Shown piece by piece: positions 32,948-44,597 of a DNA stretch of 46,463 bases. Below the pieces are notes generated by a model. It ran no database searches. It was not told the DNA's origin and saw only the letters and a list, made by a program, of their open reading frames with translations. Within the stretch, counting starts at the first letter, position 1, and each line of letters begins with the position of its first letter. The stretch spans positions 1-46,463 of the forward strand of contig QHXI01000087.1 in assembly GCA_003222895.1 (NCBI GenBank), read 5' to 3'. The DNA comes from Acidobacteriota bacterium. Its GTDB lineage: Bacteria > Acidobacteriota > Blastocatellia > Pyrinomonadales > Pyrinomonadaceae. The translations under genes and the position numbers were made by a program.

Positions 32948-35554
32948 ATGTCACTGATCATTTCTCCCCCGCGCGCAATCCGCAATTTCCTTCTCAGCCT
33001 TGTTTCCCTTTTTATCATCGTAAACATCGCGGCAGCACAGCAGTCGCAACCGGCGGGCCCGGGACCGAGCGCGCGTCGCGTCACGCGGCCGTTTCCGGCA
33101 CCGCAATACATTCCGCCGCACGATTATGATCAGCGAAATATCAAGCTCGATCTGAGATTTGATTGGGATCAGGAGCAGGCAATCGGCAGCGAAACGATTA
33201 CGCTCGCGCCCACCGTAAAGGATTTGCGCCGGGTCGATCTTGACGCCGCGTTCATGACGTTTTCGAGTGTCACACTGGCTGCGGGCGCGCCGTTGAAGTT
33301 CGAATACGATCCCACGAAAGAAAAGATTTCGATCTTTTTCGACCGCGCGTATCAACCGTCAGACGAATTGACGTTGGTGATTTCGTATCACACGAACAAA
33401 CCGCCCGCGGAGCGCACGGCGCTCGTTGGCGGCGGTGGACTGAACTTCATCAAGCCGCGGCCTGACGATCCCAACCGGCCGAAACAAATTTGGACTCAGG
33501 GAGAGGCCGAGGCAAATCATTTCTGGTTTGCCTGCTTCGATCATCCGAACGATTTCGTTACGACTGAAATCGTCGCGACGGTCCCGACTCCGCTGACCGT
33601 GATTTCGAACGGCGCACTCGTAAGCACGAAAGATAATTCGGACGCCACGCGCACGTTTGATTGGAAGATCGACGTGCCGCACGCAACCTATCTCACCTCG
33701 ATCATCGTTGGCGAATTCGCGCCGGTGACTGGCGAGTACGCCGGGATTCCCATCACCACAAACGTCTATCCGAACGAATTGCAAGAGGGAAAGATAACGG
33801 CCGCACGTCTGCCCGAGATGGTCAAATTCTTTTCCGAGAAGACGGGCGTAAAATATCCCTACGCGAAGTACGCGCAAACGACCGTGCGCGATTTCGGCGG
33901 CGGCATGGAAAACATCAGCGCGACCACGCAGACCGACAACATGATTCATGACGCGCGCGCGGAACTGGATTCGAACACCGACGGCTTGCAGGCGCACGAA
34001 TTGGCGCATCAATGGTTCGGCGACTATGTAACGTGCCGCAGTTGGTCCGACATCTGGCTGAATGAAAGTTTCGCGACTTACTTTCAGGCGATGTGGGATG
34101 AACATAAGTTAGGACGTGACGACTTCCTTTACGCCGACGTGCGCGGCAATCAGGAAGCTTATTACGCGACCTGGGCGCGCGGTCAGCGCCGCCCGATCGT
34201 CACCAGGAATTATCCGAATCCCGATGCGGTCTTTGACACGTACGCATATCCGCGCGGCGGAGCGGTGCTGCATATGCTGCGAACGTTCCTCGGCGAAGAC
34301 AATTGGTGGCGCTCAATTAATCACTATTTGACAAAGTACGCTCATCAACCGGTCGAGACCGCGCAGTTTCGCATCGCGATCGAAGAAACAACCGGCCAGC
34401 CGATGGATTGGTTTTTCGACGAGTGGCTTTACAAGATGGGCCACCCCGTTTTTCGCGTCACGCAGGATTATGATGCGACAAAGAAACTTCTGACGCTGAA
34501 CGTCCGGCAGGAGCAACGGCCCGATCCCGAATCCCAATATCCCCAGGTCGCCTTCTTCCAAACCCCGGTCGATATTGAAATCGGCACGGCTTCAAACAAG
34601 AGAATCGAACGCGTGCAGATCGAGCCAAAGGAAGAACAGACGTTCAAGTTTTCAGTTGATTCCGAGCCGCTGTTGGTGAACTTTGATTACAGCAGCACGC
34701 TGATTAAGGAACTCGTCTTCGTCAAGACAACTGGACAGTTGCTGTATCAATTGCGAAACGACGACGATGTGCTTGGAAGAATTTGGGCTACTTCGCAACT
34801 CGCGTCCCGTATGAACGAGGAGAAGACTTCGGCGGCCGATCGCGAATCGATCGTCAAGGCGTTTGGCGAACGGGCGACGGAGGATCAATTTTGGGGCGCA
34901 CGATTCGAAGTCGTGGCCGCGTTGACCGGCAAGAAAGAAGCGCGGGATGCATTACTCGCGGCGGCAAAGGATGGCGACGCTCGAGTGCGCGCTCGCGCCG
35001 TCAACTCGCTGGCGGCGACGAAGGATCCCAGCCTTGCGGACACGTACGCTCAACTGCTCAACGATCGAAGTTACGCCGTGATTCGCGCTACCGCGTTAGC
35101 TTTGGGCCAAACGCAGAGCTCGACGGCCTATGACTCGCTGATCAAATTGATCGAAGCGCCCTCGTGGCGCGATACGATTCGCGCGTCGGGACTGAGTGGC
35201 TTGGCGGCGTTGGCGGACAAACGCGCGCTGGATCTCGGTTTCAAGTATTACGCTCAGCCGAATCCCTCGGCGGTTCGTCTGGCGGCTCTAAATCTTCTCG
35301 GCGCAACGGGCAAAGACGACCCGCGGACCCTCGCGACTTTGACTGCGACGCTGAATGAGGGCGTCGAGCGAAGAAATTTCGGAGTAGTGACCGCGGCCGG
35401 CGAAGCTCTCGTCCTTTTGGGAGATCAGCGTGCGTTAACAACGTTCCAGGAGTTGACCAAGAAAGCCGGGACCTCGCCGCAAATCATTGCAACGCTTTCC
35501 GGTTACGAAGCGCGGCTGAGATCGAAAGCCGTAGCCGCGAAGCCAGGCAGCTAA
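32948..35554 (+). CDS. Exported M1-family aminopeptidase with HEAT repeats
   Basis: An 868-residue zinc aminopeptidase. A signal peptide runs to about residue 30 (LVSLFIIVNIAAAQQ). The exopeptidase motif is GGMEN (near 317), the zinc motif HELAHQW has H350, E351 and H354, and E373 completes it in LNESFATYF. The last 240 residues carry HEAT-like repeats (ARVRARAVNSLAATKDPSLA, YAVIRATALALGQ) in place of the usual ERAP1-like domain. It probably trims peptides outside the cytoplasm. The 178 bp upstream hold no gene. Confidence 0.92.
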   Translation: MSLIISPPRAIRNFLLSLVSLFIIVNIAAAQQSQPAGPGPSARRVTRPFPAPQYIPPHDYDQRNIKLDLRFDWDQEQAIGSETITLAPTVKDLRRVDLDAAFMTFSSVTLAAGAPLKFEYDPTKEKISIFFDRAYQPSDELTLVISYHTNKPPAERTALVGGGGLNFIKPRPDDPNRPKQIWTQGEAEANHFWFACFDHPNDFVTTEIVATVPTPLTVISNGALVSTKDNSDATRTFDWKIDVPHATYLTSIIVGEFAPVTGEYAGIPITTNVYPNELQEGKITAARLPEMVKFFSEKTGVKYPYAKYAQTTVRDFGGGMENISATTQTDNMIHDARAELDSNTDGLQAHELAHQWFGDYVTCRSWSDIWLNESFATYFQAMWDEHKLGRDDFLYADVRGNQEAYYATWARGQRRPIVTRNYPNPDAVFDTYAYPRGGAVLHMLRTFLGEDNWWRSINHYLTKYAHQPVETAQFRIAIEETTGQPMDWFFDEWLYKMGHPVFRVTQDYDATKKLLTLNVRQEQRPDPESQYPQVAFFQTPVDIEIGTASNKRIERVQIEPKEEQTFKFSVDSEPLLVNFDYSSTLIKELVFVKTTGQLLYQLRNDDDVLGRIWATSQLASRMNEEKTSAADRESIVKAFGERATEDQFWGARFEVVAALTGKKEARDALLAAAKDGDARVRARAVNSLAATKDPSLADTYAQLLNDRSYAVIRATALALGQTQSSTAYDSLIKLIEAPSWRDTIRASGLSGLAALADKRALDLGFKYYAQPNPSAVRLAALNLLGATGKDDPRTLATLTATLNEGVERRNFGVVTAAGEALVLLGDQRALTTFQELTKKAGTSPQIIATLSGYEARLRSKAVAAKPGS

Positions 35555-35671: not shown

Positions 35672-35701
35672 TTGAGTTAAATTGGAATCTCCTGCTATAT
35701 T
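35672..35701 (+). promoter_or_regulatory. Promoter of the response-regulator/HEAT cassette
   Basis: TTGAGT (35672-35677), an 18-base spacer and TATATT (35696-35701) preceded by TG at the extended position. A 7-bp hairpin (CGCACCG 35710-35716 with CGGTGCG 35724-35730) lies in the leader, before the ATG at 35770. Confidence 0.6.
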
Positions 35702-35769
35702 CCTAATGACGCACCGATCAGCGCGGTGCGGACGCCCCCAGCCTTCTCGCCCTAGAGGGAATACAATTA

Positions 35770-36549
35770 ATGTTAGAAAAACAAAGTGGAGAGAAAGGTT
35801 TGTCTCACTCAATCGAAGCTACGGGAACAGCAACCGCTCCGGCGCCGGCCATCTCGCTGTTAGTTGTTGAAGACGACGAGAACATTTCGACGGCGCTTGC
35901 AGAGTATTTCTCACGAGCAGGTTACTCGGTTACCACTTCTCCAGACGGTCTTGCCGGAGTCGAAGCAGCAGTCAACAGTCGGCCCGACGTGGTCGTCCTG
36001 GATTTGATGTTGCCAAAGATGGACGGCTTGAGCGTCTGCAAAGAAATACGACAGAAGAATCCGCTGATGCCGATCATTATGCTCACTGCAAAGGATGATG
36101 TGGTCGATAAGGTGCTCGGACTTGAGATGGGCGCCGACGATTACATCACCAAGCCATTCAGCCTGCGCGAAGTCGAAGCCCGCATCAAGTCGGTGCTGCG
36201 ACGAGCGCGTGCTGCCGCGGCTGCCAGCGATGGAAGAGATGAAACGCCCATCGTGCGTGGCCAATTACGTGTCGACCCAGTTCGGCGCGAAGTGACGATC
36301 GCCGACAAGCACGTCGACCTTACGCCGAAAGAATTCGATCTGCTGCGTTTGTTTGCTGCGAATCCCGGTCGCGTTTTCCCGCGTAAGTACTTGCTCGAGA
36401 AGATCTGGGATTACTCATACGAAGGCTACGACCGGACGATTGATTCTCACATTAATCGCTTGCGGGCGAAGATCGAAGAGAACCCTGAGAATCCGCAACT
36501 GGTGCTCACAGTTTGGGGCATCGGTTACAAATTTACGGACGCAGAATAA
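35770..36549 (+). CDS. Orphan OmpR/PhoB-type response regulator
   Basis: A 259-residue two-domain regulator. The receiver has D34/D35-type acidic residues (VVEDDEN), phosphorylation site D78 (VVVLDLMLPKMDG), T106 and K128 (ADDYITKPF). The winged-helix DNA-binding domain covers the last 100 residues (DLTPKEFDLLRLFAANPGRV, DRTIDSHINRLRAKIEENPE). A 28-residue Ser/Ala-rich leader precedes the receiver and is unusual. No histidine kinase is adjacent; the nearest H-box protein is the kinase-less one at 14357. It heads the HEAT-repeat cassette. Confidence 0.93.
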   Translation: MLEKQSGEKGLSHSIEATGTATAPAPAISLLVVEDDENISTALAEYFSRAGYSVTTSPDGLAGVEAAVNSRPDVVVLDLMLPKMDGLSVCKEIRQKNPLMPIIMLTAKDDVVDKVLGLEMGADDYITKPFSLREVEARIKSVLRRARAAAAASDGRDETPIVRGQLRVDPVRREVTIADKHVDLTPKEFDLLRLFAANPGRVFPRKYLLEKIWDYSYEGYDRTIDSHINRLRAKIEENPENPQLVLTVWGIGYKFTDAE

Positions 36550-36655
36550 ACTGCTTCCTCGCCTCTCGCCGGCACCTCCGGGGACCGGTTCGCAAGTCCC
36601 GCGAGCCATCCCTGAAATTCACGCCGCACATTAACCAACCTAGACGGTGAAAGCT

Positions 36656-38365
36656 ATGCCAACTCAATTCTCAAACTTCCCTTTCCGCCGATCGGCGTCA
36701 TGGATATTCTCTCTTGCCGCCGGCTGCATCATGATGCTCGTGTTCGCTGTATCAGCTAATGCCGCGATTCAGGATGCACCAACCGACGACGGGTCGTCAT
36801 GGATCTTCTCAACGTACGGCATCTCGATTTTCCTGGTGGTGCTGCTGGTTGGGTTAATCGTCTACAAGAAATGGCGTCACAACAGAGACAACGACGGATT
36901 CGAAGACGTTGAATTACGGCGCGTCACCGAACCAAGAAGTCGCTCGATGCAAACGATTAGTTCGGGATCTCAGGACCCGAAGACTGACCGCCGCGCGGAG
37001 GCCGTGGATGGTGTCCAAGTTTGGGAAAAGCCGGCAGAAGCGGAACAATCGGTATTCGGGGCGTATCGAATCGATCAAGAAGTCGACAAGTTAGTTCTCG
37101 GCAAACCTCATCGCATGGATGTGATGGCGTCGCGCGCGTCCGACGATCGTCGCGCAATCGAAGCTTCGCTGCTTAAAGCGATCGAATCTTCCGAAACGAA
37201 CCAAGAAGGCCGCCGCCGCGCGCGCCACGCTTTGGAGGAATATGGTTTCGTCGCGCGTCAGGGCGCGACGATGCTGATGGGACGCGATGCGTGGGAGCGA
37301 TCCTCCGCTGCGCGCGCCCTGGGACAAATTGGCGCGCAATCGTCGCTTTCATTTTTGATCGAGGCATTGCATGACAACGATTCGGTGGTTCGGAATCAAG
37401 CGATCTCCAGTCTGGGGTCACTGAAGATGCCGGCGGCGATCGGCGCGCTCCTGGACATCGCTCGCCGTCATCCGGAAATTCCCGCATCGTTGTTGAGCGA
37501 AACCTTGAGCGCCTGTTCAGTTGAGAGCCTTGGTTATCTCGACGCTCCATCGTCCCAGCCCGCCCTGCTTTCGGCGAATGTCAGCGAAAGCGAGCCCGCC
37601 GATCTCGACAGATTTGTTTCGTTTCAAGACCTGCCGGTAGGTGCTGAAGACAAAGAGTTGACCAAAGCAATCGATCAGCTTGAGGGTTCCGACGACCGAG
37701 CCCGCGCGTCGCTGGCGCAGGAACTTGCGCTGCATCCCGTGCAACGTTCGGTGGCCACGCTGACATCACTCGTGATGAGCGATCCGGATCCGGCAGTGCG
37801 CTCCGCGGCGGTTGGGAGTCTGGGTTCGATCGATCACGAATCGGTGTTCGCGCCGGTGCTGATCGGTCTGGCTGACGAATCACGCATTGTGCGAGCCGCT
37901 GCGGCCCGCACGTTGACAAGTCTGAATTTCGATCGCGCGGATGCTTACGTTCGTGTTATGGAGACCGCCGACCCCGAGATGATGAAAAAGGTCGCACAAG
38001 CTTGCGTCCAGACCGGTATCGTCGCGCAAGGCGTCGATCGTTTGGCGAGTGAAGATCGCCACCAGGCGTTCGAGGCATTCTCGCTCTTTTCGCTGCTTGC
38101 GCGTGCTAATGAAACTGACCCGATCACGAATGTGATCGAGAAGCATCAGGACGAGGACGTGCGCTTGTGCGCGGTTCGCGTGCTGAACGTTGCCGGTCAG
38201 GCGGCGCTGGTGCCGAAGCTGCGGGAGATTGTTGGAAAGGAGAGCATGCCGGAAAGTGTTCGCACGGCCGTACTCGAAGTCCTGTATAAATTGGATCAAG
38301 ACGAACCATTAATGCATTTGGAAGCGAGTGACAATGAGCCGATGACGTTGCATAATTCTGAATAG
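36656..38365 (+). CDS. Membrane-anchored HEAT-repeat protein with modules A and B
   Basis: 569 residues from ATG 36656; a GTG at 36647 is the alternative start, and GGTGA before the ATG serves as ribosome site. A signal-like segment (WIFSLAAGCIMMLVFAVSANA) is followed by a second helix (ISIFLVVLLVGLIVYKKW), so the rest faces the cytoplasm. After a charged linker, HEAT repeats form module A (about 185-287, RARHALEEYGF) and module B (about 340-547, VRAAAARTLTSLNF, EAFSLFSLLARA, SVRTAVLEVLYKL). The next two genes each carry one of these modules. No enzyme motif is present. Probably a scaffold. Confidence 0.8.
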   Translation: MPTQFSNFPFRRSASWIFSLAAGCIMMLVFAVSANAAIQDAPTDDGSSWIFSTYGISIFLVVLLVGLIVYKKWRHNRDNDGFEDVELRRVTEPRSRSMQTISSGSQDPKTDRRAEAVDGVQVWEKPAEAEQSVFGAYRIDQEVDKLVLGKPHRMDVMASRASDDRRAIEASLLKAIESSETNQEGRRRARHALEEYGFVARQGATMLMGRDAWERSSAARALGQIGAQSSLSFLIEALHDNDSVVRNQAISSLGSLKMPAAIGALLDIARRHPEIPASLLSETLSACSVESLGYLDAPSSQPALLSANVSESEPADLDRFVSFQDLPVGAEDKELTKAIDQLEGSDDRARASLAQELALHPVQRSVATLTSLVMSDPDPAVRSAAVGSLGSIDHESVFAPVLIGLADESRIVRAAAARTLTSLNFDRADAYVRVMETADPEMMKKVAQACVQTGIVAQGVDRLASEDRHQAFEAFSLFSLLARANETDPITNVIEKHQDEDVRLCAVRVLNVAGQAALVPKLREIVGKESMPESVRTAVLEVLYKLDQDEPLMHLEASDNEPMTLHNSE

Positions 38366-38396
38366 CGTTCTTCGCTTTGTCGTTGATGTTGCCCCA

Positions 38397-40175
38397 ATGA
38401 TGAGCACAATGAACCAATCGCCCCGCTGTGCCGATTTCTCAGCCTCAATTCTGGGATTGGCGCTCGCATTTTTGCTGACCGCTGCGCCAGTCGCGGCGCA
38501 GAGCAAGATCGTCCGGCCTACGCCGCAGCCAACTCCGAAGCGCACACACGTCGCGACATTGCGCGCCAGCGATTCTTCTGAAGGATCGCGCGTAGCGATA
38601 AGTTCCGATCAATCGCTCAACAACTATGAAGCTTATCGGCGCGGCGATCGTTTCTACGTAAAGATTCCCGCGGCTGACGTGCCACGCGCTGAAGCCGTCC
38701 GCGGCCGTGGTTTCGCCGATGTCAAAGCACAAAGAGCGGGTGACAGCACGGTTCTTTCGTTCCGGCTGCAACCCGGCGCAACCGCTCACGTTGAGCAACG
38801 TGCGAACAAACTTGACGTGGTGGTGAGCGTTCCCGGAGGCGGCACTCCCGCAGTTGCCGCGAATCGGTCGCGCGAAGTCAGCCGCCCCGTCACGCCCGCA
38901 ACGAATCGAAATTCGAACCCGAGCAATCGGGGAGCGTCGTCATCCGCAAATCGGAATAAGTCGGTAGCCTCGAAAGCTGGATCGAGAGACGGATCGAAAG
39001 GCACGCCTAGAGAATCATCGGCCGCTGCGAACAAGAACGCCGGCAATCAAAAATCATCGACGTCAACTAGTTCGTCTAACTCGAATTCGAAACCTACGAC
39101 AACGCCGACACCCGCGAACAGCCCTTCTTCGAAAGCTTCGCCCAGCGTGAAAGCGGCAAGTCCCACACCGGTTCAAAAATCAAACATCGCCAACAACGCT
39201 TCGCCGTCTCCGTCGAACACGAATACCACAAACCAGTCTGGAACCGATGCGTGGTCGCAAATGAAAGCTCGCGCGCACTACTGGCTCTTGCTGGCCCAGT
39301 TGAACCCGATTCCGGTCATCACCGGCGCTATAGTCTTGCTGGCGATAATCACCCTGCTGTTGTTCCAGCGTCGCCGCGCGAAAGCGACTCGGCGCGTGAA
39401 AGTCACGAAGACGGAAACTTCAAAACCATCGGTCGAAGCAGCCAGCGCATCTTCAGTTGCCCCGGCTGGTTCTGCGGCTGCCTTGCCGGTGGCCGAAGCC
39501 GCCGTCGCTTCCACCGAGGCCGAGTCTGCCGCTGAAGCCGCTGAAGTGATTCCAGCGCCAATCGTGGCCGTACCGCCAACAACCGAGGACGACAACGAGC
39601 GCCGAGAACGCGTCACACAAATTTCGGCGGAAGCCAAAAAAGTTTTCGATGGCGAGCAATACGACGAATCCATCGTCGGTTCGAACGATCCCGAAACGCG
39701 CCGGCTGGTTGGAGCCGAGATGCTCTCAGCGATGGTTGGTCGAAACGTCGAGCGCCGCGAGCGCGCGCGCGAAGCATTCATGAAGCACGGGTACTTTGAC
39801 GACGCGACCCGGGATTTGCGCGTGGCACAATCTGACAATGAACGCGCGGCCGCAGCCCGACGCTTGAGTTTTGTTCAAAATCCTGAAGCAACTCCACATC
39901 TCGTCGGTGCGCTTCAGGATTCTTCGCCCGATGTTCGGCGCGCCGCGGTTGAAGCCTTGATGGACGTCCGGGATCCGGCCGCAATCGCTCCTTTGAATTC
40001 GCTGCTGCAAAACGAAACCGATCGCAAGGTGCCGCGCAATTTGATTCAGCAAGCCATCGATGCTTGCGCTACGGGCGCTCCGGGTGAAGCCACACCGGCC
40101 GGAGTCGCTTCAAGCTTTACTCCCGAATCGTCTTCACAAGCTCTCGAAACTGAACGCGAGGTGATCGAATTATGA
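38397..40175 (+). CDS. AMIN-like, membrane-anchored HEAT protein with module A
   Basis: 592 residues. A signal peptide (ILGLALAFLLTAAPVAAQ) leads to an extracytoplasmic AMIN-like domain (about 50-142: GSRVAISSDQSLNNYEAY, GRGFADVKAQRAGDSTVLSF), a fold that binds peptidoglycan in PilQ and AmiC. A Ser/Asn/Thr-rich linker (145-285), a membrane helix (IPVITGAIVLLAIITLLLF, about 303-321), an Ala/Glu-rich linker and cytoplasmic HEAT module A (about 450-560) follow. Its stop overlaps the next start as ATGA. The AMIN call is by pattern and moderately certain. Confidence 0.8.
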   Translation: MMSTMNQSPRCADFSASILGLALAFLLTAAPVAAQSKIVRPTPQPTPKRTHVATLRASDSSEGSRVAISSDQSLNNYEAYRRGDRFYVKIPAADVPRAEAVRGRGFADVKAQRAGDSTVLSFRLQPGATAHVEQRANKLDVVVSVPGGGTPAVAANRSREVSRPVTPATNRNSNPSNRGASSSANRNKSVASKAGSRDGSKGTPRESSAAANKNAGNQKSSTSTSSSNSNSKPTTTPTPANSPSSKASPSVKAASPTPVQKSNIANNASPSPSNTNTTNQSGTDAWSQMKARAHYWLLLAQLNPIPVITGAIVLLAIITLLLFQRRRAKATRRVKVTKTETSKPSVEAASASSVAPAGSAAALPVAEAAVASTEAESAAEAAEVIPAPIVAVPPTTEDDNERRERVTQISAEAKKVFDGEQYDESIVGSNDPETRRLVGAEMLSAMVGRNVERRERAREAFMKHGYFDDATRDLRVAQSDNERAAAARRLSFVQNPEATPHLVGALQDSSPDVRRAAVEALMDVRDPAAIAPLNSLLQNETDRKVPRNLIQQAIDACATGAPGEATPAGVASSFTPESSSQALETEREVIEL

Positions 40176-42472
40176 CCGCTCACGAATTACTCTCTCAGCT
40201 CCGGGCCAAAGGCGTGGAGATCAAAACTTCCGGCGGCGATCGCCTGGTGATCGACGCGCCAAAGGGCACCGTCACTGAAAATCTGCGCGCGGCGTTGTCG
40301 GCGCACAAGGCAGAGCTGTTGCAAATCCTGAACACGGAAGCGAACCAAGCGGCCGCGTCACCGGCGGCGGCTGCGCCTGCGGTACCGGAAACACCTCCCG
40401 TCATTGTCTTACCCGTTCCGGAAGTCGGCGAAGAAGTCTCTCAACCCGGGTTAGCTTTCGCTCCTGAAACTTCCCATCTACCCGCGGCTACCGCGGAAGT
40501 CGATCCAGCTGCGGACAGCGTGGCGCGGGAGATGTCCCAACTGCAGATTGAGTTGATGCGACTGCGAACGGAAGAAGAAGCGCGCCGTGCCGAAGTTGAA
40601 GCTGCGCGGATCGCCGCTGATAACGCGATGCAAGTCGAGCAGGAACGACTGCGCCAACGGGAAGAAGAGCTCGCGCGCCAACGCGCCGAGCACGAACGTC
40701 AACGCATTGAGGCAGAAGCTCATGAACGCGCGGAAGAGGAACACCGGCGGCAGTTAGGGGACGAAGCAATCGCCCAGACTGCACTGCTACTCACACAGAT
40801 GCGCGATGATGAAGACGTGCGCCGGCAACAGGTTGAAGCGAAAAAGCGCGCCGCGGTCGAGAGGCACGAAGCGGAGCTTGCGGCACTTCGTCAGGCCGAA
40901 GAAGAGCAGTCGCGACAACGCTCAGACGAAGAGCGCAAACATATCGAAACTGAAGCTCGCCGGCGTACCCAGGAAGAGGAATTGCGCCGCCACGCTGAAT
41001 CGCACTTCCGTGCCGTCGAGGAAGAAATGGAGCGCGTACAAGCGCGCGAGGTTGCGCGGATAAAAGCTGAGGAGGAAACACAACGGCTCGTCGAAGAGGC
41101 CGAGCGCCGTCGCCGCGAAGAAGAAGCTCGCCGCCTGGCTGAAGAACAGGCACGACGCCGCGCTGAAGAAGAAGCGAAGTTACGCGCCGAGATCGAAGCC
41201 CAACTGCGCGCTGAAGCCGAGGAACGACGTCGCGCTGAAGAAGATGCCCGCCGTGAAGCTGAAGAAGAAGCTCGCCGGCGCGCTGAAGAAGAAGCACAGG
41301 CGCTCGCCGCTGAACGCGCTCGTCGTTTGGCCGAGCAAGAAGCGCAGCGTCGCGCCGACGAAGAAGCACGGCGTCAGGCTGAGGAAGGCGCGCGTTTGAG
41401 AGCTGAAGAAGAAGCTCGGCGCGCAGCTGAAGAGCAATCGCGGATGAGCGCCGAACAGGCAGAGAACAATCGTATCGACGTTCAGAAGCGTGAGCGCACC
41501 GAACTGGAAGCGCGCATTCGAGCCGAAATCGAAGCGAAGATTCGCGCCGAAGATACCGAGCGACGCGAGGGCGACGCGCGACGGCGTGCCGAAGAAGAAG
41601 CTCACCGGCGCGCGGAACACGAGCGGATTGTCGCCGAAGAAGCGGCCAAAGCCACGACCCGCGAGCCGTATCCATTCGAAATCGAACGATCAGAAGTCGA
41701 AGATCCTCCTTTGTCGAATGCATCGTCTAAGGTCACGGAAATTGAAGAGTGGTTCCAGGTCGATCTGCAAAACCGCAAAGAGATCGTTCCCGTAACTGCC
41801 GAAAGCAATTTCTTTGCCCGCAGCGAAGAAGAAGCCAGCGAATTTCGCCCGGTCAGCATTCCCGAAGAAAGTTTTGGTCCCAGCGCGCATTTGCCGGCGG
41901 AGGTTTCGGAGCAATTGATTAGGGGCAGCTCAGCCGAACGCATGGCCGCAGTTTCTAACCTGCCCCATATCGGTGGTGAAGAGGCTTTCCGTCATATCAG
42001 CGCCGCGTTCGATGATCCGGCGATCGACGTTCGGAACGCCGCTGCCCGAGCGCTGTTCGAACTACAGGAGGATCGCGCGGCTGCGTTCACGCGCGCTTTG
42101 CGCGAAGCCAGTGCCGATCGTCGTCGCAAGATCGGTGCGGCGATCGCTTCGTCGGGATTAGCTAATGAGGCCATCAGAAATTTGACCGGCGAGAGCCGCG
42201 ACAAAACTTATGATGCCTTCTCGCTTTTGTTCTTGATGTCGAAAGCCGGAGAGGTGCAGAGCTTGATGCGCGCGATCGAAGAGCATCCAAACATCGAAGT
42301 TCGTCTGGCGGTAGTAAAGCTGCTCGCGCTAAGCGGACAACCCGACATTCTGCCCTCGTTCCGACGCATGGCGGTGCGTGGTTCGCTCCCGCCCGAAGTT
42401 CGTTCGGCAGTGATGGAAGCGATTTATCAAATTACGAGCCAGTCACCGGCTGAAGCTCAATCGACGATGTAA
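40172..42472 (+). CDS. TubC-docking, coiled-coil and HEAT module B protein
   Basis: 766 residues, soluble. The first 57 residues ([49 protein letters not shown]) match the TubC N-terminal docking domain that joins subunits of NRPS/PKS lines. No such synthase is nearby. A Pro/Ala linker follows, then a very long charged coiled coil (about 115-490, RRAEEEARR repeats). The C-terminal HEAT module B (about 574-757, [38 protein letters not shown]) is homologous to that of the 36656 protein. ATGA overlap couples it to the AMIN-like gene. A terminator follows. Confidence 0.82.
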
Positions 42473-42496
42473 CAGCAAACCAACTCCTGATTTCGC

Positions 42497-42531
42497 AAGC
42501 GCAGAGTGGACTTCCCTCTGCGCTTTTTTTG
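42497..42531 (+). terminator. Intrinsic terminator of the HEAT cassette
   Basis: AAGCGCAGAG (42497-42506) pairs with CTCTGCGCTT (42516-42525) around a 9-base loop, and T continues to 42530. It separates the cassette from uvrB. Confidence 0.92.
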
Positions 42532-42608: not shown

Positions 42609-44597
42609 ATGTCTTTCGCTCTCAAATCCGATTATCGTCCCTGTGGCGACCAACCGCAGGCGATCGACGCTCTGGTTCGCGGTCTTCGAGATGGTTCGAA
42701 GGATCAGGTTCTGCTCGGCATTACCGGCAGCGGCAAGACTTTCACCATCGCCAGCGTCATCGAAGAAACGCAGCGGCCGACTCTCGTAATCGCTCACAAC
42801 AAAACGCTCGCGGCTCAGCTTTATCAGGAATTTCGATCACTCTTTCCCGAAAACTCCGTCGAATACTTCGTCTCCTATTACGATTATTATCAACCCGAAG
42901 CATACGTTCCCGCCTCAGACACTTACATCGAAAAAGATGCCATCGTTAATGAAGACATCGATCGTCTTCGCATGTCTGCCACGCGTGCGCTTTTCGAACG
43001 GCGCGATGTGATTGTCGTGGCGAGCGTGTCCTGCATCTACGGTCTTGGCGACCCGGATGCGTACTATGGCATGCTCGTTTTTCTCGAGCCGGGGATGCGT
43101 ATCGCGCGCGATACTTTGCTTCAGCGTCTGGTCGAATTGCAGTACGAACGCAATGACATTGATTTTAAACGTGGCAGCTTTCGCGTGCGCGGCGACGTTG
43201 TCGAAGTCTATCCCAGCTATCAGGACGAGGCTTATCGCGTCGAGCTGTGGGGCGATGAAATCGATTCGATCTCGACGATCGATCCGTTGCTGGGCGAAGT
43301 CACGCAGAAGCACACATCGCGCGTTCCGATTTATCCAAAATCGCATTACGTAATGCCGCGTACGACTTTGAAGCGAGCCATCAAATCGATCAAGCAAGAG
43401 TTGGAATGGTGGGAGCCGAAGCTAATTGAAGAAGGAAAATTGCTCGAAGCCCAGCGTCTGCATCAGCGCACGATGTTCGACCTCGAGATGATGAAAGAGA
43501 TGGGCTTCTGTCGCGGCATCGAGAACTATTCGCGTCACCTGACCGGCAAGAAACCTGGCGAGCCGCCGCCGACGCTGCTTGATTATCTTCCGCGCGACAC
43601 GCTGGTCGTGATCGACGAATCGCACCAGACGATCCCGCAGGTACGCGGCATGTTCTTTGGCGATCAATCGCGTAAGAAGACGCTGGTTGAATATGGTTTT
43701 CGTCTGCCGTCGGCGTTGGATAATCGTCCATTGAACTTCGATGAATTTGAAGGACGCATCAGCCAGCGCATTTACGTCTCAGCCACGCCGGGCCCGTACG
43801 AACTCACCAAATCAAGCGGCGAGGTCGTTGAGCAAATCATTCGGCCGACGGGATTAATGGATCCCGAAGTCGAAGTTCGTCCGGTCAAAGGCCAAATCGA
43901 TCATCTGCTTGGCGAGTGCCGCCTGCGCGCCGAAAACAACGAGCGCGTACTGGTTACGACCTTGACGAAGAAAATGTCAGAAGACTTAACCGAGTACTTC
44001 ACCGAAGTCGACGTGCGCGTACGCTATCTTCATTCGGACATCGAAACACTGGAACGTATCAAGATCCTGCGTGATCTGCGCCGCGGCGAATTCGATGTGC
44101 TGGTGGGAATCAATCTGCTGCGCGAAGGTTTAGATTTGCCCGAAGTTTCGCTCGTCGCAATTCTCGACGCGGACAAAGAAGGATTTCTGCGGTCTGAATC
44201 ATCTTTGATTCAGACGATCGGCCGGGCCGCGCGCAACGCGAACGGCAAAGCGATTCTTTACGCCGACCGTGTGACCAATTCGATGAAGCGCGCCATCGAT
44301 GAAACGCAGCGACGGCGCGCGCTTCAGGAAGTTTACAATCGCGAACGCGGCATTACGCCGATGACGATCATCAAACCGATCGAAGCAACTCTGGTAACTG
44401 CCGCCGAGGCCGACTATTTCAAAGTGCCGCTGGAGCTGGAAGACATTGAAGCTTATAGTGCGGAACAAATCGAGGAAACCATCAACCGCTTAGAATTCGA
44501 AATGCGCGAGCACGCCAAGAAATTCGAGTTCGAAAAGGCCGCCGAGCTTCGCGATCGGATCAAGTATCTGCGCGAGCGTGAATTAGTGGTGGCTTAG
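42609..44597 (+). CDS. uvrB: Excinuclease ABC subunit B
   Basis: A 662-residue helicase-like damage verifier that works with UvrA (encoded at 4031-6898) and UvrC. Walker A is GITGSGKT (37-44). The damage-probing beta-hairpin lies in [13 protein letters not shown], helicase motifs VVIDESH and [19 protein letters not shown] are intact, and the C-terminal UVR domain ([20 protein letters not shown]) that contacts UvrC is present. The ATG at 42609 has no clear ribosome site. Confidence 0.97.

Follow-up and report, generated by a model that had tools for sequence, protein, structure and literature searches.

Why would a bacterial genome place, behind a single response regulator gene, three related HEAT-repeat genes, one of which appears whole and the other two of which look like its halves? 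This arrangement occurs in a 46,463-nucleotide stretch of DNA (contig QHXI01000087.1, referred to here as the window) from an Acidobacteriota bacterium of the family Pyrinomonadaceae. The layout proposed in a first-pass annotation, a response regulator (RR) followed by three HEAT genes (HA, HB and HC) and a terminator, was confirmed by the coordinates:

32948..35554, + strand: M1-type peptidase with C-terminal HEAT repeats, which often adjoins RR upstream
35770..36549, + strand: RR, OmpR-family response regulator, receiver plus winged helix (Pfam domains, NCBIfam)
36647..38365, + strand: HA, start GTG 36647 or ATG 36656
38397..40175, + strand: HB, with signal-like helix, N-terminal beta domain, low-complexity linker, transmembrane segment (TM), HEAT A and docking tail
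40172..40175, + strand: ATGA stop/start overlap of HB and HC, 4 nt
40172..42472, + strand: HC, with TubC_N docking domain, long E/R-rich helix and HEAT B, without TM by hydropathy
42499..42530, + strand: intrinsic terminator, hairpin plus T run (-19.7 kcal/mol, z -4.6)
42609..44597, + strand: uvrB, the downstream neighbour in 17/20 loci with >1 kb of sequence downstream

RR belongs to the OmpR family by its Pfam domains; its best NCBIfam scores, for RpaB (240 vs cut-off 330), MtrA (231 vs 300) and YycF (227 vs 340), all fall under the equivalog cut-offs, and these identities were rejected. The terminator hairpin was not reported by a consensus terminator scan, probably on account of a long or bulged loop. 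The counts of the consensus scan were at chance level (10 terminators vs 11.6 expected, 4 promoters vs 1.9 +/- 1.7 expected), and a promoter-like site at 35672 is therefore of little weight. In a gene-neighbourhood survey RR preceded HA, in the same orientation, in 28/28 loci, and HB, or a fused HB+HC, lay downstream of HA in 24/24, so the genes do stay together in relatives. RR may place the set under two-component control, as had been suggested.

The three proteins share two HEAT modules, A and B, and two of them are predicted to be anchored in the membrane:

36803..36859, + strand: predicted TM of HA, residues 53-71 (hydropathy)
37052..37546, + strand: HEAT module A of HA, residues 136-300 (profile match)
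37757..38311, + strand: HEAT module B of HA, residues 371-555 (profile match)
39309..39365, + strand: predicted TM of HB, residues 305-323 (hydropathy)
39609..40082, + strand: HEAT module A of HB, residues 405-562 (profile match)
41912..42451, + strand: HEAT module B of HC, residues 581-760 (profile match)

HA holds both modules within one polypeptide, and the earlier reading of two proteins as membrane-anchored agrees with hydropathy, by which HA and HB each have a signal-like helix plus a single additional TM. Built from 19 HA module-A sequences, one profile matched HB with 65 bits (columns 6-156), compared with 42.6 bits for the best other HEAT protein of the genome, a sum over generic repeats with a best single stretch of 26. 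The margin was smaller for the reverse profile (19 module-A sequences from HB or fused proteins), which gave HA 82 bits, a contig C13 protein 77.6 bits over the second half of the module only, and another HEAT protein 67.5 bits summed (best stretch 34); the C13 protein proved to be a relative. The profile of 19 HA module-B sequences gave 140 bits to HC, 131 to the C135 paralogue and no more than 26.9 to any unrelated HEAT protein. Profile-profile comparison joined A with A (99.5%, E 8.5e-23, 151 columns) and B with B (100%, E 8.6e-39, 172 columns), the A:B crosses reaching 50-92% over 49-65 columns. The modules thus align specifically with one another, above the genome's other HEAT proteins and not as random HEAT proteins would. 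A paralogue adjacent to mreB matched with 77 bits over its whole length and 82.5 bits over its first 120 residues when HMMER was run with --max; without this option it gave no HEAT match, probably through the composition filter. The CpcE/NblB phycobilisome HEAT proteins were rejected as identities for HA (39 bits vs 300 and 36 vs 330, NCBIfam curated cut-offs).

The claim that HB and HC are a split duplicate of HA was upheld in the sense that HB+HC is the split version of an HA paralogue, which is one polypeptide in 11 relatives and two genes in 10. The cut lies after HEAT A in 7/10 and before it in 3/10. All 10 split junctions combine a 4-nt ATGA overlap, an upstream tail of the form [ED]REV[IF]E[LI] and a downstream N-terminal TubC_N domain above the Pfam cut-off, a domain found in 0/11 fused proteins (best score 3.8 bits, E 0.2). 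As a DNA pattern, tail plus ATGA occurs in 10/118 family genomes, once in each and always at the HB/HC junction, with one match for the reversed control. The fused and split genomes were counted among 42 with a HEAT B match of the HC type; besides the 11 fused and the 10 split with the cassette, two have frame breaks without it (G007, G140), one has frames broken by N runs (G123), six are cut by a contig end or matched only at a paralogue or HA (G001, G009, G017, G074, G132, G137), two are compact (G027, G136), nine have nothing but a short HEAT B protein (G121, G122, G125, G126, G129, G131, G133, G134, G135) and one has a 167-aa HEAT B frame adjoining RR (G124). Since G007 and G140 are draft genomes with breaks in this very gene, such breaks do occur; nevertheless, faulty assembly or decay of the gene is an exceedingly unlikely cause of the split, given its presence in 10 genomes, the synonymous differences among their tail codons and the complete TubC_N domain that opens each downstream gene.

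The elements of the junction in the window are as follows:

40152..40172, + strand: C-terminal tail of HB, EREVIEL, predicted docking short linear motif (SLiM)
40172..40339, + strand: TubC_N / beta-hairpin docking domain (betaHD) of HC, residues 1-56 (Pfam PF18563, 44.2 bits, cut-off 26)
40505..41638, + strand: helical arm of HC, 378 residues, model residues 112-489 (predicted model)

The first-pass annotation had given HC a TubC/coiled-coil arm; Pfam supports the TubC_N domain and the model supports the helical arm, but the TubC part is most likely the joint between the split halves and not an ornament. Identity of HC with TolA was rejected (17 bits vs a curated NCBIfam cut-off of 213). The AlphaFold model of HC (H3-12, E16-20, E24-28, H36-44, H46-61; pLDDT 80-90) has an alpha-beta-beta-alpha-alpha order, in agreement with the betaHD fold and the position of beta2, aa 24-28, described in PMC6195595, and its beta2 carries R24 and D28. 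A Foldseek search with the whole HC model found HEAT/ARM-type chains in all 50 matches listed and no docking domain among them, and the tryptophan common in NRPS TubC_N domains is absent from HC. Tail residues -7 to -1 show 79% mean identity among the 10 splits, compared with 9-16% in the three preceding blocks. By sequence, all 10 tails have a glutamate at -2, predicted to face R24, and a hydrophobic C-terminal residue.

The same pairing is seen at junctions elsewhere. Of 36 TubC_N loci at sites other than HB/HC, 10 were dropped because no frame of 100 codons preceded them with an overlap of 4 nt; in the 26 kept, which all belong to a single phylum and are in part dependent on one another, position -2 is acidic in 11/14 with R24 and in 0/12 without it (Fisher 4.9e-5). 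Leaving out four perhaps miscalled junctions, whose tails end without a large hydrophobic residue, gives 11/12 vs 0/10 (p 3.4e-5); two of the three R24 junctions lacking an acidic -2 are doubtful calls. Three NRPS junctions of the phylum (PCP domain followed by TubC_N-condensation, Pfam) end in NREEIEL, AREYGEL and EREVGEL, the last with R24/D28. The second salt bridge of Kj12, between residue 28 and position -4 (PMC6195595), has no counterpart here, -4 being V in 10/10 splits; the same source, which gives a Kd of 15 uM for the Kj12 pair, describes systems in which hydrogen bonding or hydrophobic contact may stand in for the bridge. A pairing of residue 28 with -6 was found in 4/5 vs 2/21 (p 0.005), a pairing picked after inspection of the data.

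Most likely, therefore, HB and HC are re-joined halves, because the HB tail and the HC domain match the R24/E(-2) contact of published pairs and other junctions co-vary in the way that it predicts; binding of the two as halves of one membrane scaffold through a docking pair is thus a probable prediction from sequence. That the HC domain instead docks elsewhere or only self-dimerises, the acidic end of HB being a coincidence, we consider unlikely. TubC dimerises through its hairpin and TubC-NDD is a homodimer (PMC6195595), so that self-association of HC is possible; SLiM-betaHD pairs can be promiscuous (PMC9113145), and the SLiM was dispensable in one NRPS system (PMC13324335). However, tail and domain occur together in 10/10 splits at two positions, while the domain occurs in 0/11 fused proteins; the HB tail is conserved amid non-conserved surroundings, the co-variation in other pairs matches the published contact, and the genome of the window holds the DNA pattern once and TubC_N once, in HC. 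A ribosomal frameshift at ATGA, which would yield a fused HB-HC and make the joint unneeded, would suit the -1 frame of HC relative to HB and the 4-nt overlap; yet upstream of its ATG the HC frame is open for no more than about five codons (772 vs 766 aa), no slippery heptamer was seen on checking by eye, and the product would hold a docking domain absent from naturally fused proteins. We rejected this very improbable explanation on these grounds.

The history of the split was approached with two trees. In the tree of HC docking domains (57 columns, few supported forks) three groups appear, namely the genus of the window (g1), G011, and G014/G034/G128; a single clade of all of them, tried as one origin, fits the data too (p-AU 0.21, not rejected). 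In the UvrB tree, midpoint-rooted and with two partial rows left out, split and fused lineages alternate, and a split and a fused genome are sisters in G011 + G020 (90/79). From this midpoint-rooted tree we infer that the fused form probably came first and the split later. The arms of split HC are E/R-rich in 9/9 measured (E+R 0.35-0.43; the tenth, G004, is cut by a contig end and was left out), and the fused linkers are richer in P/T/V/S in 10/11 (E+R 0.15-0.22). Arm and split are not strictly tied, since fused G020 carries an arm (E+R 0.46), and the arm was rejected as the reason for the split.

A further element concerns the origin of HB:

38541..38837, + strand: N-terminal beta-rich domain of HB, residues 49-147, homologous to the HA N-domain of other genera

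HB had been described as re-equipped with this domain, and the evidence reverses that direction. The domain is common to HB and to the HA of other genera (15/15 examined; HHalign 99%, E 2.9e-18) and absent from HA in the genus of the window (4/4 examined); therefore a loss from HA is the likeliest event, and not a gain by HB. The scenario of the first-pass annotation, in which a duplicate of HA acquired both a domain for wall binding and a coiled-coil arm, gains something from the fact that HA of the window, like two short HA-like proteins of deeper genera (L057, L058), lacks both domain and arm; it is nonetheless very unlikely, as HA carries the N-domain in 15/15 loci examined outside the genus and the genus is nested among N-domain lineages in the UvrB tree. 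The identification of this domain as AMIN found no support from Pfam (PF11741 matched 1/11 members, E 0.025), from HHalign (1.9% probability against nine AMIN stretches from relatives) or from a family search of the window genome (G000; nothing at E 0.1), and no AMIN chain was present among the 6 matches of one search or the 50 matches listed in another. The domain may still have a remote AMIN fold, because the predicted model, of low confidence (mean pLDDT 53), has eight strands.

In the mechanism that we propose, the full scaffold would run N-domain, TM, HEAT A, arm and HEAT B, in the order of the single polypeptide of relatives, and would be divided by a docking cassette consisting of the C-terminal SLiM of HB, the ATGA stop/start and the N-terminal TubC_N of HC. 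In the HC domain the tail would pair with beta2 (residues 24-28) as one more strand. R24 and E(-2) would form a salt bridge, D28 and R(-6) perhaps a second, and the final hydrophobic side chain of the tail would occupy the helix pocket, so that the halves would be connected reversibly and non-covalently. Coupling by ATGA would pair the synthesis of HB and HC. HB would span the inner membrane, its beta domain lying on the outer side and HEAT A on the inner side, and the 378-residue arm of HC would carry HEAT B at its tip, roughly 57 nm away at 0.15 nm per residue; HA would be a one-piece paralogue of short reach. The set may be envelope-spanning, as had been suggested. Only tentatively do we regard the gene set as an envelope-anchored scaffold that might recruit a client, perhaps one tied to the cell-shape machinery.

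Several known systems resemble parts of this arrangement. The SLiM-betaHD pairs of NRPS/PKS (TubB/TubC, Kj12B/C, EpoA/B) share with HB/HC the N-terminal alpha-beta-beta-alpha-alpha domain, adjacent genes, R24 and an acidic residue 28 on beta2 and a partner tail ending in E-hydrophobic. HB and HC, however, are HEAT proteins, one with a TM, and not synthase modules (carrier, condensation, adenylation and other synthase domains gave no Pfam or NCBIfam match in HA, HB or HC); their joint lies at a split inside a protein that relatives make whole, and their second salt bridge is proposed via -6 and not, as in Kj12, via -4. In artificially split NRPS described in PMC7496407, a polypeptide was likewise cut and re-joined by natural docking domains, but the HB/HC split is natural, at two positions and outside biosynthesis. 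The polar landmarks HubP/FimV, as presented in PMC12918733, also have a periplasmic domain, a single TM, a long cytoplasmic region and C-terminal helical repeats; the scaffold differs in having HEAT in place of TPR, with no LysM or FimV TPR among Pfam matches up to E 1. The AMIN-bearing FliO of PMC12403147 similarly has a periplasmic beta domain, one TM and a cytoplasmic part, but AMIN identity is unsupported in HB and the FliO core is absent among the Pfam matches.

Within our own set, DUF3631/DUF3987 proteins at L162, L164 and L182, presumably of mobile elements, are followed by small TubC_N proteins with an ATGA overlap as in HB/HC; their tails are REVFEL, REHFEL and REIFKL, and the partners have an acidic residue 28 in 3/3 and R24 in 2/3, the small size of the second protein being one difference from HB/HC. 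Whether tail, ATGA and TubC_N form a portable gene-splitting connector, inserted into ordinary coding sequences to give a reversible two-part complex, is in our judgement evenly balanced. Its occurrences on that reading are the envelope scaffold at two sites and the DUF3631/DUF3987 proteins with small partners, with split NRPS as the hand-made parallel.

In the publications consulted, SLiM-betaHD pairs have been described from NRPS/PKS assembly lines only, and the same joint now appears in a predicted membrane scaffold. Fused and split relatives, together with two cut sites, provide a natural comparison, which makes docking-domain evolution testable outside biosynthesis, and the joint would give a rule for predicting which split genes still act as one protein. 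It also provides an entry point to a so far uncharacterised family of scaffolds in uncultured Acidobacteriota.

The 4.77-Mb draft genome G000, in which the window is contig C152, carries an OmpR-family response regulator gene (RR) followed by three HEAT-repeat genes, HA, HB and HC, that share two HEAT modules, A and B. Transmembrane segments (TM) in their products were called from hydropathy alone, and the structure model of HB is of low confidence.

35770-36549, + strand: RR, OmpR-family response regulator
36647-38365, + strand: HA, signal-like helix and single TM, followed by HEAT A and HEAT B
38397-40175, + strand: HB, signal-like helix, beta-rich N-domain, TM, HEAT A
40172-42472, + strand: HC, TubC_N (a beta-hairpin docking domain, betaHD), 378-residue helix, HEAT B; without TM
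42499-42530: hairpin terminator, closing the RR-HA-HB-HC set

Of the 37 same-family genomes sampled first, 20 have an HA orthologue (>350 bits); 23 genomes representing other families of the class have none. At E 1e-35, HEAT B of HC was matched in 42 of the 119 family genomes, and at least one of these matches, in G017, is to HA itself. For gene order, seven proteins of the window were run by tblastn against 40 loci (L-numbers) and the window itself. RR lies upstream of HA on the same strand in all 28 loci with an HA orthologue, at a distance of 78-252 nt in the 20 loci measured, and HB or a fused form follows 3' of HA in all 24 loci where the sequence continues, so that the conserved neighbourhood proposed as a check by the first-pass annotation was indeed found. 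RR, which adjoins HA in 28/28 loci, probably controls the set. Further downstream, uvrB is present in 17 of the 20 loci with more than 1 kb of sequence there, the exceptions being L051, L103 and L104. A single gene intervenes before uvrB in L055, and uvrB of G006 lies in two open frames (L035:4302-6430), probably owing to an assembly break.

The HEAT modules were compared using profiles built from 19 HA orthologues. The module-A profile scored HB at 65 bits and the next-best HEAT protein of the genome at 42.6 (generic repeats, summed), and the module-B profile scored HC at 140 bits, a paralogue on contig C135 at 131 and the best remaining HEAT protein at 26.9. The margin was narrower for an HB-side module-A profile, which gave 82 bits for HA, 77.6 for a related protein on contig C13 (second half of the module only) and 67.5 for a further HEAT protein, a sum in which the single best stretch reached 34. 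Profile-profile comparison yielded 99.5% over 151 columns for A:A and 100% over 172 columns for B:B, with A/B crosses aligning over just 49-65 columns. These comparisons confirm the proposed module-specific relation of HA to HB (A) and to HC (B): HEAT A and HEAT B are specific homologous parts, beyond generic HEAT likeness.

In 11 genomes (G008, G012, G015, G020, G023, G025, G078, G079, G080, G138 and G139) HB and HC are a single protein of 937-1369 aa, arranged as N-domain - HEAT A - linker - HEAT B; in all except G078 (10/11) a TM separates the N-domain from HEAT A. They are two genes in 10 others, cut after HEAT A in seven (G000, G002-G006, G011) and before it in three (G014, G034, G128); the remaining 21 of the 42 HEAT B genomes belong to neither class. 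The earlier reading of HB and HC as a split duplicate is thus upheld. Its companion, that the split genes had been re-equipped with new domains, is reversed, as HA carries the N-domain in every one of 15 loci examined from other genera (HHalign against the HB domain, 99%, E 2.9e-18) and lacks it in all four cases examined in the window's genus. Because the genus is nested, in the UvrB tree, among lineages whose HA has the N-domain, this domain was most likely lost from HA of the window's genus. The original observation stands, and its interpretation does so in part.

The 10 splits have three features in common: gene ends that overlap by 4 nt (ATGA), the tail [ED]REV[IF]E[LI] on the upstream product and TubC_N at the start of the downstream product. 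This domain was found above 3.8 bits in none of the 11 fused proteins. A DNA pattern of tail plus ATGA matched once in each of 10 of 118 family genomes, always at the HB/HC junction, and its reversed control matched once in the 118. Among 396 phylum-wide genomes, which contain 5 of the 10 split genomes, it matched at one further place, the junction of a DUF3631 protein with a small TubC_N protein in G355. TubC_N itself occurs in 14 of the 118 family genomes, at 10 HB/HC junctions, 2 NRPS junctions (PCP / TubC_N-condensation, assigned by Pfam) and 2 small-protein junctions, behind a DUF3631 protein and an AAA/DnaB-like protein. Tail residues -7 to -1, counted back from the C-terminus, have a mean identity of 79% among the 10 splits, compared with 9-16% in the three preceding blocks, and their codons differ synonymously.

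In NRPS/PKS enzymes, betaHD domains bind short C-terminal tail motifs (SLiMs). In the solved Kj12 pair, as described in two reports, just the last five tail residues bind, along beta2 (residues 24-28), with salt bridges R24-E(-2) and E28-R(-4) and the last tail residue buried (PMC6195595; PMC9113145). In the HC model beta2 comprises residues 24-28, and R24 and D28 are present in TubC_N of all 10 splits; the HB tail likewise has E(-2) and ends in a hydrophobic residue in each of them. Unlike in Kj12, position -4 is V, and the published second bridge (28/-4) has no counterpart; R(-6) is invariant in these tails, and D28 may face it in plain antiparallel register, a contact proposed post hoc.

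Covariation was assessed in 36 TubC_N loci outside HB/HC, of which 26 were kept (upstream frame of at least 100 codons, 4-nt overlap), all from a single phylum and not fully independent. For the R24/-2 contact, taken from the published pair, an acidic -2 accompanied R24 in 11/14 pairs and other residues at 24 in 0/12 (Fisher 4.9e-5). A basic -6 accompanied acidic 28 in 4/5 pairs, versus 2/21 otherwise (p 0.005, post hoc). Random reassignment of tails to domains equalled the real charge match, 17 opposite and 1 same, with p 1e-4, in a test that takes in the post hoc 28/-6 contact. Because of this covariation in other pairs, and because the tail EREVGEL occurs with R24/D28 at an NRPS junction (L175, A-PCP / TubC_N-condensation), the HB tail can be assigned, by its sequence, to the SLiM type. 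At L169 the polarity is swapped, D24 standing opposite K(-2), as a docking contact would predict. At L140/L162, L164, L182, L153 and L152, a DUF3631, DUF3987 or AAA/DnaB-like protein precedes, with an ATGA overlap, a small TubC_N protein; the tails at L140/L162, L164 and L182 are REVFEL, REHFEL and REIFKL, respectively. These loci encode apparent docking pairs outside assembly lines.

Several related proteins were also observed. The C135 paralogue (1523 aa; L033:9809-14380 in G000; also L036, L040, L069, L070, L071) combines a HEAT A head remnant, recognised by eye, with an SMC-like coil and HEAT B; its C-terminus is 52% identical to HC, and it has no TubC_N and, by hydropathy, no TM. It adjoins a class II aldolase gene (by Pfam in L033 and L040; elsewhere a same-sized 256-aa gene) and, in L033, also a TonB-type outer-membrane protein gene. 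A compact form of ~500 aa, N-domain - TM - HEAT B (L068:7674-9233, L120:6817-8316), lies between an M1 peptidase (plus RR in L120) and uvrB. In other genera of the family (L057-L064), HA-like proteins of about 350-415 aa have a signal-like helix, TM and HEAT B only (two checked); the fetched stretches include uvrB in 7/8 and RR in 0/8. In a subset of genus g9 (L117, L119, L123-L127), a HEAT B protein of ~190-250 aa alone remains before uvrB, separated from RR in L117, L119 and L123 by three proteins (Pfam, L119 only: TPR, DUF4388, none).

Among the open-licence papers listed by the searches, judged by titles and abstract openings, we found neither SLiM-betaHD pairs outside megasynthases nor the HA/HB/HC scaffold. 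Artificial splitting of an NRPS with docking pairs of this type has been published (PMC7496407), and HubP/FimV (PMC12918733), by its layout, and AMIN-bearing FliO (PMC12403147) are analogues of the scaffold and not relatives. Our verdict is that a docking pair already known recurs here in a new setting, the natural split of an uncharacterised scaffold. Most likely, HB and HC are translationally coupled and re-joined by the docking pair: HB, in the membrane with HEAT A, and HC, the arm with HEAT B, would be synthesised in step and re-joined as one scaffold with a releasable arm, with HA as the short one-piece form. Client, topology and regulation of this scaffold are what we infer. A soluble HEAT A paralogue, related to HEAT A of HB and carrying a long coiled coil of ~750 residues, has its gene immediately 5' of mreB and on the mreB strand in the two genomes where a close copy occurs, G000 (L198:5046-7694, contig C13) and its near relative G006 (L226:4699-7401, contig C247), with gaps of 57 and 90 nt. 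The cell-shape machinery is therefore, as a functional hint, a first candidate client of the scaffold.
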